Source: a bacterium (GTDB lineage: Bacteria; UBP15; UBA6099; DSWB01). From it: a stretch of DNA of 15,705 nt. The notes beneath the pieces are model-generated. The model was given only the letters and a program-made list of their open reading frames with translations, did not search any database and was not told the origin of the DNA. The DNA lies in contig JAGUYV010000204.1 in assembly GCA_020061125.1 (NCBI GenBank), forward strand, positions 1 through 15,705. The letters run 5' to 3'. The translations under genes and the position numbers were made by a program. Positions within the stretch are counted from its first letter, which is position 1. Each line of letters opens with the position of its first letter. Positions 3,033 through 15,705 of this stretch are shown piece after piece.

Positions 3033-3046
3033 AGCGGTCCGGGGCT
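3033..3046 (+). repeat. 14-bp direct repeat, right copy
   Basis: Identical to 2377-2390. It overlaps the last two bases of the hydrolase gene's stop codon region (stop at 3045-3047 on the minus strand). Confidence 0.6.
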
Positions 3047-4286
3047 ATGATTCCCGGTCCAGGGTTTCGATCAGGTCAATGACCAGGGAACTCCAGCCGA
3101 AGTGCCCGGCGCCGTGGCCCTGGCTCGTGAACGGGTCGTAATACTCGCGGAACCCGCTGCGGTCCACCATGGCGATGGTGCGCAGGGCCAGCTCGCGCGC
3201 CATGTCCTGCCGCCCGTACCGGCGCAAACCCTCCACCATGAGCCAGTTGGTGTTCACCCACACGGTGCCGCGCCAGTATTGCACCTGGTCGAACGCCGGA
3301 TGCTTGATGTCAACGGTGGGAACCGGATATTCGGTCCAGAATGTGCCGGGATCGGACAGATGCGCGATGAGGCGTTCGGCCCGGTCCGGGGCCGCGATGC
3401 CCGCATACAGAGGCAGGAGCGAAAACGGGGTCAGAGCCTTGAGCATGCGCTCACCGCGGCCTTCGAGGCAGTAATACGCGCCCGTGGCCGGGTCGTACAT
3501 CTTGGTGTTGATGGCCTGCGCGGTGTCTTCCGAGCGCAACTCGTATTTTTCCCGCAGGCCGCCGTCGCCCAGTTCCCCGGCGATCCGCGCCAGGGTGGCG
3601 GTGTTGCGGCAGTAGTAGCAGTTCATGTCAATGGCTTCCACATCGAATAGGGACACGCGGCGCATGCGCTCGCTCCGGTACCCGGACACGAAGTTGAAGA
3701 GCATGATGAGCTTTGTTTTGGGGATGTTGAATTTCCAGCGTTTGAATTTCGCGGGGTCCACGCCGAAGATGGTGTCCCAACGCGGCGAGTTGTCTATGCC
3801 GGTTTCCCAGGGGTGATACACGCTGATGAGGGCGTCGCCGTCCGGGTCGCGGTCCACGCTCAACCAGTCGTGATACCGGCACAGGGGCTGGAACATTTCT
3901 TCGAGGAACGCCCTGTCGCCGGTGATTTCATAGATGCCCCAGACCGCGTCGGCCAGGATGGGGGGCTGGGTGATGCCGCTGGTGTCGCGGCCGGTGAAGT
4001 GCTCGAAGCGGCGGTAGAAAGGCCGCAGGTGCACCATGTTGGGGATGCGCCCGTCGGGCCACTGGCCGCTGACAAGGGAGCGCAGCTCGTTTTTGGCGAA
4101 ATCCGGGTCGAACCAGCGCAGGGCCATGACATGGAAACACGAGTCCCACAGCCACTGGCCCTGATACATGATGTCGTCGGGGCAAGTGAAATGGTAGTCT
4201 TTGCCGTTCTTGCGCAGTGTGCGCCGGTTGCGGTGGAGCAATCGTTCGGCGCCCTGGCGCACGCGATTCATGGCGGATTTGTCCAT
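3045..4286 (-). CDS. GH63-type mannosylglycerate/glucosylglycerate hydrolase-like protein
   Basis: 413 residues, the usual size for bacterial GH63 single-domain enzymes with an (alpha/alpha)6 barrel. Motifs of the mannosylglycerate/glucosylglycerate hydrolase group are present: WLWDSCFH with Asp48, SGQWPDGRIPNMV, TSGITQPP with Gln107, HPWETGIDNSPRWD (159-171), VQYWRGTVWVNTNWL (335-349), and REYYDP with Glu381. In the Thermus enzyme the corresponding Asp and Glu are, from memory, the catalytic acid and base. Such enzymes release glycerate from the osmolytes mannosylglycerate or glucosylglycerate; the exact substrate cannot be read from sequence, and other GH63/GH15-like alpha-glycosidases are possible. 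There is no signal peptide, so it is probably cytoplasmic. The ATG lies 3 nt after the thymidylate kinase stop with only a distant AGGA, which suggests translational coupling; an alternative ATG is at 4271. Confidence 0.85.
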   Translation of the reverse strand: MDKSAMNRVRQGAERLLHRNRRTLRKNGKDYHFTCPDDIMYQGQWLWDSCFHVMALRWFDPDFAKNELRSLVSGQWPDGRIPNMVHLRPFYRRFEHFTGRDTSGITQPPILADAVWGIYEITGDRAFLEEMFQPLCRYHDWLSVDRDPDGDALISVYHPWETGIDNSPRWDTIFGVDPAKFKRWKFNIPKTKLIMLFNFVSGYRSERMRRVSLFDVEAIDMNCYYCRNTATLARIAGELGDGGLREKYELRSEDTAQAINTKMYDPATGAYYCLEGRGERMLKALTPFSLLPLYAGIAAPDRAERLIAHLSDPGTFWTEYPVPTVDIKHPAFDQVQYWRGTVWVNTNWLMVEGLRRYGRQDMARELALRTIAMVDRSGFREYYDPFTSQGHGAGHFGWSSLVIDLIETLDRES

Positions 4287-13488: not shown

Positions 13489-15024
13489 ATGTTTGCTCGC
13501 ACCCGAAGCGCAGCCACCATGGGCATTGACGCCTATGTGGTGGATGTGGAAGTCCATATCGCATCCAAGGGATACAAGGATCCCGTGATCGTGGGTCTGC
13601 CCGACGCTGCGGTCAAGGAAAGCTGGCAGCGGGTCAAGCTGGCGCTGCGCAACAGCGAACTGCCGCACTCGGAGCACGCCACGACCGTGAATCTTGCGCC
13701 CGCGCACACGCGCAAGGAAGGGCCGTCGTTCGACCTGCCCATGGCCGTGGGCGTAATGGCGGCCAGCGAGGTGTTTTCCGGAGATCTGTGGGAGCAGCTC
13801 CTGTTCGTGGGCGAGTTGTCCCTGGACGGCAAGCTGCGGCATGTGAACGGCGTGCTCCCCATCGCGCTCATGGCCGAGCGCAAGGGATTCGCGGGCATTG
13901 TGCTGCCGTCCGCAAATGCCGCCGAAGCCGCGCTCGTTCAGAATCTCAAAGTGTACCCCGCAGACACTCTGGAGCAGGTGTACCGGTTCCTCACCGGCGA
14001 GTTCGTGATCGAATCGCACCCCCCGGCCGGGCCGGAGGTGTGGAACGCGAGGCCATCTTACGGCGTGGACTTTTTCGACGTCAAGGGACAGGAAGCAGCC
14101 AAGAGGGCCATGGAGATCGCGGCCGCGGGCAACCACAACATCATCATGGTCGGCCCGCCGGGCAGCGGAAAAACCATGCTGGCCCGCCGCCTGTCCACCA
14201 TCCTGCCCAATCTCACGCGCGAGGAGTGCCTCGAAGTCACCAAGCTGTACAGCATCAAGGGCCTTCTGCGCGGAGGCGACGATGTGGTGCGCACGCGCCC
14301 GTTCCGCAGCCCGCATCATACCATCTCGAACATCGCCCTGGTCGGCGGCGGCACGATTCCCAAGCCCGGCGAGGTGTCCCTGGCCCATTTCGGCGTGCTG
14401 TTCCTGGACGAACTGCCCGAGTACAAACGCGATGTGCTCGAAGTGCTGCGCCAGCCCCTCGAAGACGGCACCGTGAGCATCGCCCGCGCCGCGCAGTCCC
14501 TGTCCTTCCCAGCGTCTTTCATCCTCGTGGGCGCTATGAACCCCTGCCCCTGCGGCTGGATGGGCGACTATGTGCGCGAGTGCACCTGCGCACCGCACCA
14601 GATCCAAAACTACCTCAAGAAAATCTCCGGCCCGCTTCTGGACCGCATTGACATCCATGTGGATGTCCCCCGGCTCGAACCCGAAAAACTCTCCTCCACC
14701 CCCACCGGCGAAACCTCCGAGGTCATCCGCGCGCGCACCCAGGAGGCGCGCGAGCGCCAGCTCCGCCGATACCGCGACGAACACATCTTCTCCAACGGAG
14801 AACTCGGCGGCCGCTTGCTGCGCAAATACTGCGCCCTGCCCCAGGACGCTGAAGACACCCTTATGCTCGCCATCAAGTCCTTCGGCTTCACCGCACGCGC
14901 CTACGACCGCATCCGCAAGCTCGCGCGCACCATCGCAGACCTCGCGGGCCGCGACCAGATCTCGCAGGCCGACATCGCCGAAGCCATCCAGTTGCGCAAC
15001 CTCGACAGAAAGTACTGGGGCTGA
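13489..15024 (+). CDS. comM: YifB/ComM family Mg-chelatase-like AAA+ ATPase
   Basis: 511 residues, the normal length. ComM is a hexameric branch-migration helicase that helps integrate incoming DNA during natural transformation; the family is also widespread in bacteria not known to be competent. The N-terminal domain has IVGLPDAAVKES, VNLAPAHTRKEGPSFDLPMAVGV and FVGELSLDGKLRHVNGVLP. The ATPase core has Walker A GPPGSGKT (222-229, Lys228), RSPHHTIS, and Walker B LFLDELPE (Asp307, Glu308). A cysteine cluster NPCPCG...C-T-C (Cys353, 355, 365, 367) looks zinc-binding and is typical of the family. The Mg_chelatase C-terminal helical domain ends the protein. The start at 13489 matches the usual M-x-A-R-T-x-S-A opening. 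The gene contains the window's only ACGT (14078). Confidence 0.95.
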   Translation: MFARTRSAATMGIDAYVVDVEVHIASKGYKDPVIVGLPDAAVKESWQRVKLALRNSELPHSEHATTVNLAPAHTRKEGPSFDLPMAVGVMAASEVFSGDLWEQLLFVGELSLDGKLRHVNGVLPIALMAERKGFAGIVLPSANAAEAALVQNLKVYPADTLEQVYRFLTGEFVIESHPPAGPEVWNARPSYGVDFFDVKGQEAAKRAMEIAAAGNHNIIMVGPPGSGKTMLARRLSTILPNLTREECLEVTKLYSIKGLLRGGDDVVRTRPFRSPHHTISNIALVGGGTIPKPGEVSLAHFGVLFLDELPEYKRDVLEVLRQPLEDGTVSIARAAQSLSFPASFILVGAMNPCPCGWMGDYVRECTCAPHQIQNYLKKISGPLLDRIDIHVDVPRLEPEKLSSTPTGETSEVIRARTQEARERQLRRYRDEHIFSNGELGGRLLRKYCALPQDAEDTLMLAIKSFGFTARAYDRIRKLARTIADLAGRDQISQADIAEAIQLRNLDRKYWG

Positions 15025-15031
15025 TATTTCG

Positions 15032-15059
15032 TCCACGAAGAGCACGAAAAGGCACGAAG
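15032..15059 (+). repeat. CACGAAG inverted repeat, left arm
   Basis: 28 nt built from three near-tandem CACGAA(G/A) units at 9-10 nt spacing. It matches the reverse complement of 15453-15480 at 25 of 28 positions. It starts 8 nt after the comM stop and ends 1 nt before the next gene's ATG. Confidence 0.85.
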
Positions 15060-15060
15060 A

Positions 15061-15450
15061 ATGAACACCAAGAGAGACGACATTCTATTCAAAGATGAAG
15101 TGTATGAAATCATAGGCGCGGCTATCGAAGTTCACATGCAACTTGGATCTGGATTTCTGGAAGCTGTATATCAGGAGGCCATGGAAAAAGAGCTTGCGGA
15201 ACGGCAAATCCCTTTCCATGCGCAAACGCCGATAAGAATTTATTACAAAAGCAAACCTCTGGATAAAGAGTACATAGCCGATTTTCTCTGCTATTCCAAG
15301 ATCATCGTTGAAATCAAAGCCATGGACAAAACAGGAACGCGCGAACAAGCCCAGCTCATCAATTACCTCAAAGCCTCACGCCACAGGCTTGGTCTCTTAA
15401 TCAACTTCGGCAGTCGTCACAAACTGCAATGGGAAAGACTCATTTTGTGA
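15061..15450 (+). CDS. GxxExxY family protein, PD-(D/E)XK nuclease-like
   Basis: 129 residues. The naming motif is GSGFLEAVY with Gly31, Glu34 and Tyr37. A nuclease-like core follows: Asp74 in YIADF, then Glu84-x-Lys86 in VEIKA, and Gln98-x3-Tyr102 in AQLINYLKAS, as expected of the PD-(D/E)XK fold. The family is known in many environmental bacteria, often as many copies per genome; its biological role is not established to my knowledge. The whole gene lies precisely between two inverted CACGAAG repeat arms, the left ending 1 nt before ATG and the right starting 2 nt after the TGA. Codon use is visibly more AT-rich than the flanking comM and rdgB genes. Only a weak GAAGA serves as a ribosome site. 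Together this suggests an acquired cassette inserted between comM and rdgB. Confidence 0.88.
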   Translation: MNTKRDDILFKDEVYEIIGAAIEVHMQLGSGFLEAVYQEAMEKELAERQIPFHAQTPIRIYYKSKPLDKEYIADFLCYSKIIVEIKAMDKTGTREQAQLINYLKASRHRLGLLINFGSRHKLQWERLIL

Positions 15451-15452
15451 CA

Positions 15453-15480
15453 CTTCGTGCGTCTTCGTGCCCTTCGTGGA
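15453..15480 (-). repeat. CACGAAG inverted repeat, right arm
   Basis: The reverse complement of the left arm with three mismatches, again three CACGAAG units. It begins 2 nt after the GxxExxY stop codon. The two arms could pair in the transcript or as cruciform DNA. Confidence 0.85.
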
Positions 15481-15508
15481 TCAATTTCTCTTCAATTCCG
15501 GGCGCCGC

Positions 15509-15514
15509 TATAAT
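15509..15514 (+). promoter_or_regulatory. -10 element upstream of rdgB
   Basis: A perfect TATAAT in a GC-rich setting, 35 nt before the ATG at 15550. No good -35 is seen (TTTCTC at 15485-15490 would be at 18 nt). It would give a leader of about 29 nt. Confidence 0.5.
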
Positions 15515-15536
15515 ATCGCCTGTGGCATAACGCTCC

Positions 15537-15542
15537 GGGAGG
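15537..15542 (+). promoter_or_regulatory. Ribosome binding site of rdgB
   Basis: GGGAGG, 7 nt before the ATG at 15550. It fixes the start. Confidence 0.7.
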
Positions 15543-15549
15543 CGCACGC

Positions 15550-15705
15550 ATGGAAATCATTCTGGCGTCATTCAACAAAAACAAAGCCCGGGAGATCGAG
15601 CAGATCCTGTCGCCGGTTGCGGTCAAGTGCCTGGCGGATCTCGGCGTGAACATGGATTTCGACGCAATCGAGGACGCGGACACCTATCGCGAGAACGCGC
15701 TGATA
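15550..15705 (+). CDS. rdgB: RdgB/HAM1 non-canonical purine NTP pyrophosphatase, N-terminal part
   Basis: The first 52 residues; the gene runs off the right edge. The opening MEIILASFNKNKAREIEQIL matches the family's signature of a short strand, then S/T-x-N-x-x-K (SFNKNK, residues 7-12), which contacts the nucleotide triphosphate. IEDADTYRENA (40-50) matches the next conserved segment, E-(D/T)-G-x-T-(F/Y)-x-x-N-A, although Gly is replaced by Ala43-Asp44 here. RdgB hydrolyses ITP, dITP and XTP to monophosphates, keeping deaminated purines out of DNA and RNA. Composition returns to GC-rich after the GxxExxY cassette. Confidence 0.92.
   Translation, partial: MEIILASFNKNKAREIEQILSPVAVKCLADLGVNMDFDAIEDADTYRENALI

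Follow-up and report, generated by a model that had tools for sequence, protein, structure and literature searches.

GxxExxY genes between matched inverted arms of triplet units: candidates for a class of minimal mobile cassettes

What is the role of a small gene with a predicted nuclease product that is enclosed between two inverted repeats, with almost no room left around it? The question is raised by one end of a bacterial contig of 15,705 nucleotides (called the window), where a gene of the GxxExxY family stands between a comM-like and an rdgB-like gene (Table 1). An earlier note, made from the letters of this DNA alone, took the arrangement for a minimal mobile or repeat-associated cassette, in which the repeats might be what the protein works on, or else its landing site.

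Table 1. Features of the GxxExxY cassette and its neighbours in the window
Feature	Positions	Strand	Description
Left (5') inverted arm	15032..15059	+	TCCACGAAGAGCACGAAAAGGCACGAAG; three inward CACGAAG-type units
Right (3') inverted arm	15453..15480	-	CTTCGTGCGTCTTCGTGCCCTTCGTGGA; three CACGAAG units on the minus strand
GxxExxY gene	15061..15450	+	129 aa; predicted PD-(D/E)XK nuclease fold
comM-like upstream neighbour, outside the cassette	13489..15024	+	name given by the earlier reader; homologues in all order relatives
rdgB-like downstream neighbour, start	15550..15705	+	cut by contig end; name given by the earlier reader

Both arms are 28 nt long, 89% complementary (25 of 28 positions) and 393 nt apart. 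The left one reads CACGAAG, CACGAAA and CACGAAG, the right one three times CACGAAG; the triplet of units claimed for each arm is thus present, with an imperfect middle unit on the left. Local alignment of the flanks scores 20.5, against a maximum of 19.0 and a mean of 9.4 in 2000 dinucleotide shuffles. The arms hug the reading frame as tightly as was first read: a single nucleotide (15060) precedes the ATG at 15061, and two (15451-15452) separate the stop codon (15448-15450) from the right arm. The distance to comM needs a small correction, since its stop ends at 15024 and the gap measures 7 nt, not 8. The GxxExxY gene, which is the sole plus-strand ORF between the arms, is indeed more AT-rich than its neighbour (44% GC vs 64% in comM). 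Rfam search of positions 14900-15705 gave no match.

The product matches two families only, TIGR04256 (GxxExxY; 141 bits, cut-off 35) and PF13366 (PDDEXK_3; 137.8 bits, cut-off 22). Its AlphaFold2 model (pLDDT 94.6) is closest to the structure of Cas4 SSO0001 (4ic1) with Z of 9.6, the next structure reaching 7.5, and Foldseek matches it to lambda exonuclease as well. Among 84 aligned proteins, E34, D74, E84, K86, Q98 and Y102 are invariant or nearly so (D74 and K86 invariant, E84 and Q98 nearly so), with the motif set D..ExK..QxxxY and E84-x-K86 as the catalytic ExK. Model and alignment display the core fold together with the D..ExK residues by which the PD-(D/E)XK superfamily is defined, and we predict a Cas4/lambda-exonuclease-like nuclease with all its catalytic residues. 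Cas4/RecB nucleases such as SSO0001 resemble it in this predicted fold and in the motif set. Cas4 proteins, however, have Fe-S cysteines, whereas GxxExxY is minimal (129 aa) and no cysteine is found among the invariant or nearly invariant columns of the 84-protein alignment. It is therefore not an Fe-S Cas4, the four cysteines of which would be the mark of membership, and its gene in the window is not adjacent to cas genes. One GxxExxY match is reported to stand for a cas4 gene (PMC8934634). The best hit of a profile search against PDB sequences was T7 endonuclease I (E 0.34, not significant), and a four-way junction as the substrate of GxxExxY is a guess. The one close pair of genes differs by 3 synonymous and 3 nonsynonymous codons, a count too small to be informative.

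Whether such arms are peculiar to this locus bears on the cassette idea, which the earlier note held to fail if other GxxExxY genes lacked flanking repeats and related genomes always carried this gene here. We collected loci from relatives, 80 genome contigs of many phyla, 11 viral contigs and plasmid records, and searched up to 330 nt from the protein domain for inverted arms scoring at least 14; as a control we took windows displaced by 1.4-2.2 kb along the same DNA. Arms are present at 144 of 176 GxxExxY loci (82%) vs 6 of 483 shifted windows (1.2%). An earlier, stricter count at score 15 gave 65.5% of loci vs 0.7% of controls. This half of the refuting condition does not hold, and the window cassette exemplifies a rule that applies widely to GxxExxY loci. 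The usual arm consists of three units of about 7 nt, with the consensus CRCNRAK in most loci, spaced by 8, 9 or 10 nt (40, 68 and 53 cases); on the outer side of the first unit, the sequence is mostly TTWAC. Some loci use other words in the same design. The fixed word CACGAAG of the earlier note proved inessential, as the unit word differs from locus to locus. Two further GxxExxY genes in the genome of the window both have inverted arms, composed of CACGGAG (contig C500) and CACAGAG/CACGGAG (contig C72). In GxxExxY loci of viral contigs (L160-L167) the arms are built from quite unlike words, ACTTAAAATTT or TTCAAATT in repetition, with the inverted design kept.

Matching arms with locus-specific words would also be produced by template switching during replication, if it corrected one arm of a neutral quasi-palindrome from the other and the repeats had no function. 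Inverted identity does run into the flank at about 10% of loci, strongly in 3 of 97. But such correction leaves over the enrichment of arms at GxxExxY genes, and equally the recurring CRCNRAK form, the 8-10 nt spacing and the association of unit and protein described below; of all readings weighed here we find it the least credible. Inverted flank duplication as a general mechanism was rejected, being restricted to that tenth of loci. At one locus (L149, gene 3037-3381) the inverted identity continues about 22 nt past the arms into the flanks; L002 and L050 are alike, and such cases are rare.

The two arms of a locus match each other. In 17 multi-copy genomes, 87.5% of the pairs of arms from one locus reach score 14, compared with 7.1% of pairs taken from different loci within a genome; for 57 of 63 armed loci, no arm of the genome matches better than the own partner. 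The arms are therefore not merely copies of one dispersed repeat. The unit type is in turn tied to the protein. When 77 loci were classed as G or T (42 and 35; AG and AT types) according to the base that closes the unit, only 4 changes were needed on the protein tree, while shuffled labels required 25.8 on average (minimum 18), and still 23.3 (minimum 15) when shuffled within host phylum wherever the phylum is named. The IQ-TREE tree again gave 4 changes (null 25.7, minimum 20). A well supported split places 35 AG and no AT loci on one side and 35 AT with 7 AG loci on the other; the window locus falls among these 7. The remaining unit positions are clustered on the tree too, less strongly. Both types occur together in one genome (Botrimarina), hence it is not the host that sets the unit type; it tracks the protein tree. 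Own-arm matching and the association of unit type with protein clade argue for a cognate nuclease-arm pair. The earlier proposal of an action of the protein on the repeats thereby gains indirect support from co-inheritance across phyla, binding and cleavage themselves being what we infer from it.

Repeats without a gene, which the earlier note had asked about, are abundant. The genome of the window contains 94 CACRRAG unit pairs (3 when the pattern is read backwards) and three GxxExxY genes, so most of its arrays have no GxxExxY gene; many are short or nested palindromes. The median number of triple-unit arrays is 27 in 17 genomes with the gene vs 0 in 43 without (p 2e-7). Exceptions, with many arrays and no GxxExxY gene, are G014 (59), G018 (25) and G002 (30). 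Many arrays of G014, where no GxxExxY match was obtained, are short hairpins, 3+3 units around a loop of about 6 nt (L266-L294). An Oligosphaera genome (G081, L312-L331) harbors 414 triple-unit arrays and one AT-type GxxExxY gene, many of the arrays lying in direct-repeat clusters of CGCGAAG. In the sampled stretches, genomes with AT genes hold 21 AT and 31 AG arrays and those with AG genes 6 AT and 23 AG; we thus rejected the assumption that gene-less arrays always agree in word type with the gene present in the genome, as the correspondence is only loose.

This looseness, together with the arrays in the three gene-free genomes just named, would suit a different view, namely that another agent spreads the arrays, which serve only as landing sites, with GxxExxY genes settling in or between them as passengers or parasites. 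A gene-free site in G002/G003 which keeps a two-unit array (see below) points the same way. Randomly chosen arrays, however, would neither provide each gene with arms that match each other best nor make the unit type follow the protein tree, and we consider the passenger view quite unlikely.

The distribution of the gene is patchy. Four genomes out of seven in the order lack GxxExxY, which disposes of the second half of the refuting condition, that related genomes always carry the gene here. None of the comM genes found elsewhere in the order, in the DNA examined, is followed by GxxExxY. The empty comM-rdgB junction sought in relatives was not found in clean form, because gene order differs and rdgB does not lie beside comM there. 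Four genomes of one genus of the same order, near relatives at 95-97% DNA identity, differ: the element is present in two and absent in two, the flanks being 94-97% identical, and the element-free sites (G002/G003) keep a two-unit array. The difference between these near relatives is one of presence and absence and fits gain or loss alike. The retained array, seen in this one set of genomes, weakly supports the repeats as a landing site, onto which the cassette would have moved.

Many cassettes occupy tight operon junctions, among them fabD/fabG, gatA/gatB, trpE/trpG, pheS/pheT and cysD/cysN, with neighbours backed by Pfam (gatA recognized by eye only); neighbours of the radA and fabD/fabG cassettes are annotated. 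In Sphingomonas parapaucimobilis a cassette lies between fabD and fabG, with its right arm translated as the C terminus of the protein, whereas the fabD-fabG junction of S. paeninsulae is short; the same junction is occupied also in a planctomycete. Where both neighbours are near, 34 of 48 cassettes follow the direction of transcription, an approximate count because the naive ORF caller miscalls GC-rich loci (in the window it picks an antisense frame of comM). Up to 8 copies per genome occur, in unrelated operon junctions. GxxExxY is rare on plasmids (8 of 72,556 records) and was found in none of 50,697 phage records. The ends show no target-site duplication above chance, with a mean best direct repeat of 2.68 vs 2.65 for mismatched ends (99 loci), and the insertion boundaries are therefore putative.

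Arms that hug a start codon and are inherited with the protein could equally be an operator, through which bound GxxExxY would regulate either its own expression or that of the host operon, without any mobility. This reading leaves over the many gene-less arrays, the second arm behind the gene and the patchiness in near relatives, and the catalytic residues, invariant or nearly so in 84 proteins, speak against it as well; it appears to us very improbable.

A more serious competitor places the selection on RNA. If the arms paired in the operon mRNA, RNase III might free the cassette as an intervening sequence, and complementarity would be maintained as RNA. The position of cassettes inside operons and their mostly transcription-ward orientation agree with this, and so does a second gene family. 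Genes of TIGR02436 (S23p, four-helix bundle), two from the genome of the window and seven from plasmids, are armed in the same architecture in 9 of 9 cases at score at least 15, while 4 of 101 shifted windows have such arms; the arms are tandem units of 7-8 nt, of TTAGCGA, CAGAAGT, AAAAGGG and GACAGAG types (L048, L049, L305-L311). These few loci suggest that GxxExxY is not alone in having such ends. One armed four-helix-bundle gene, in Pseudanabaena (L305:2977-3336), lies between cas6 and cas4 within a CRISPR-Cas operon of type I-D.

The known element of this kind is the intervening sequence (IVS) in 23S rRNA of Coxiella, with an S23p ORF and 28-bp terminal inverted repeats of three tandem heptamers, the stem of which is cut by RNase III (PMC4990558). 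It resembles the GxxExxY cassette in size (about 430-450 nt), in its ORF of about 120 codons, in 28-nt inverted ends with triple tandem units and in being patchy and called selfish (PMC4990558). The window cassette, too, has inverted tandem-unit arms around an ORF of about 120 codons, but it is not itself a 23S rRNA IVS: it lies behind comM, has no Rfam match and encodes a PD-(D/E)XK protein, not S23p. The S23p protein differs in having no nuclease fold and its units in their period of 7-8 nt. Moreover, the IVS is processed as RNA, whereas GxxExxY arms are free of an RNA-pairing bias. Arm mismatches comprise 75 G-U and 72 A-C pairs; G-U is not enriched, which argues against RNA pairing as the selected feature. 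Neither three repeated units nor unit words following protein clades are needed for pairing in RNA. We judge the RNA reading unlikely, if the strongest of the rivals.

Among DNA elements, RAYTs with their REPINs (PMC3116915) offer the closest parallel. There as well, a small nuclease-type gene is flanked by inverted repeats that are also dispersed without the gene as many palindromes, and the repeat type goes with the protein; GxxExxY loci display all of this. RAYT, though, is an HUH tyrosine single-strand nuclease, while GxxExxY is predicted to be PD-(D/E)XK of Cas4/lambda-exonuclease type; an HUH (Y1) assignment was rejected, the only matches being PDDEXK_3 and TIGR04256. RAYTs are also mostly vertical and few per genome, against the multiple copies of GxxExxY, and their repeat is one palindrome where GxxExxY has three tandem units per arm. 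Insertion sequences and MITEs share the single gene between inverted ends and the gene-less relatives, but the ends of GxxExxY cassettes differ between the loci of one genome. A classical insertion sequence was rejected because of the missing known transposase, GxxExxY being the sole plus-strand ORF, and the missing target-site duplication. Some insertion sequence families make no target-site duplication.

Weighing these readings, we think it somewhat more probable than not that GxxExxY and its matched arms constitute a minimal mobile cassette, some 450 bp long, in which nuclease and triplet ends are a cognate pair. The cassette idea has survived the refutation test of the earlier note, the arms being general and the gene patchy; movement is what we add to these observations. 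In the model we propose, protein and arms are inherited together and spread between hosts, each lineage with its own unit word. The nuclease would recognize the array in DNA, either as duplex or as a cruciform extruded by the palindrome, and cut at it. Repair might then copy or join the cassette into a new place without target-site duplication. Survivors would mostly be cassettes that came to lie directly behind a stop codon inside a co-transcribed set of genes, a position in which the host operon allows their gene to be expressed. Arrays and hairpins lacking the gene would be derived forms or remnants, comparable to REPINs in their relation to RAYTs; the whole would work in the manner of RAYT/REPIN, with a different enzyme. 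A PD-(D/E)XK nuclease is not known to transpose without a helper.

In the open-licence literature two papers name GxxExxY, but we found no description that links the family with such repeats, and the repeat strings gave nothing there save a chance match in a fish eDNA paper. The element would thus apparently be a widespread, undescribed kind of minimal mobile DNA. That it forms a mobile class of its own, in which a stand-alone Cas4-like nuclease travels with its own triplet arms across bacterial phyla and viral contigs, the word diversifying while spreading and the design being common to S23p elements including the 23S rRNA IVS, we put forward more tentatively, as a possibility somewhat short of probable. 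If this is true, ends of a single kind would serve two unrelated proteins, which bears on the old question of how intervening sequences of 23S rRNA move. GxxExxY is a widespread family without assigned function, and the matched inverted triplets give it a testable substrate, with the AG/AT split as a built-in specificity-swap contrast. The same elements would account for many unexplained short repeats in numerous genomes.
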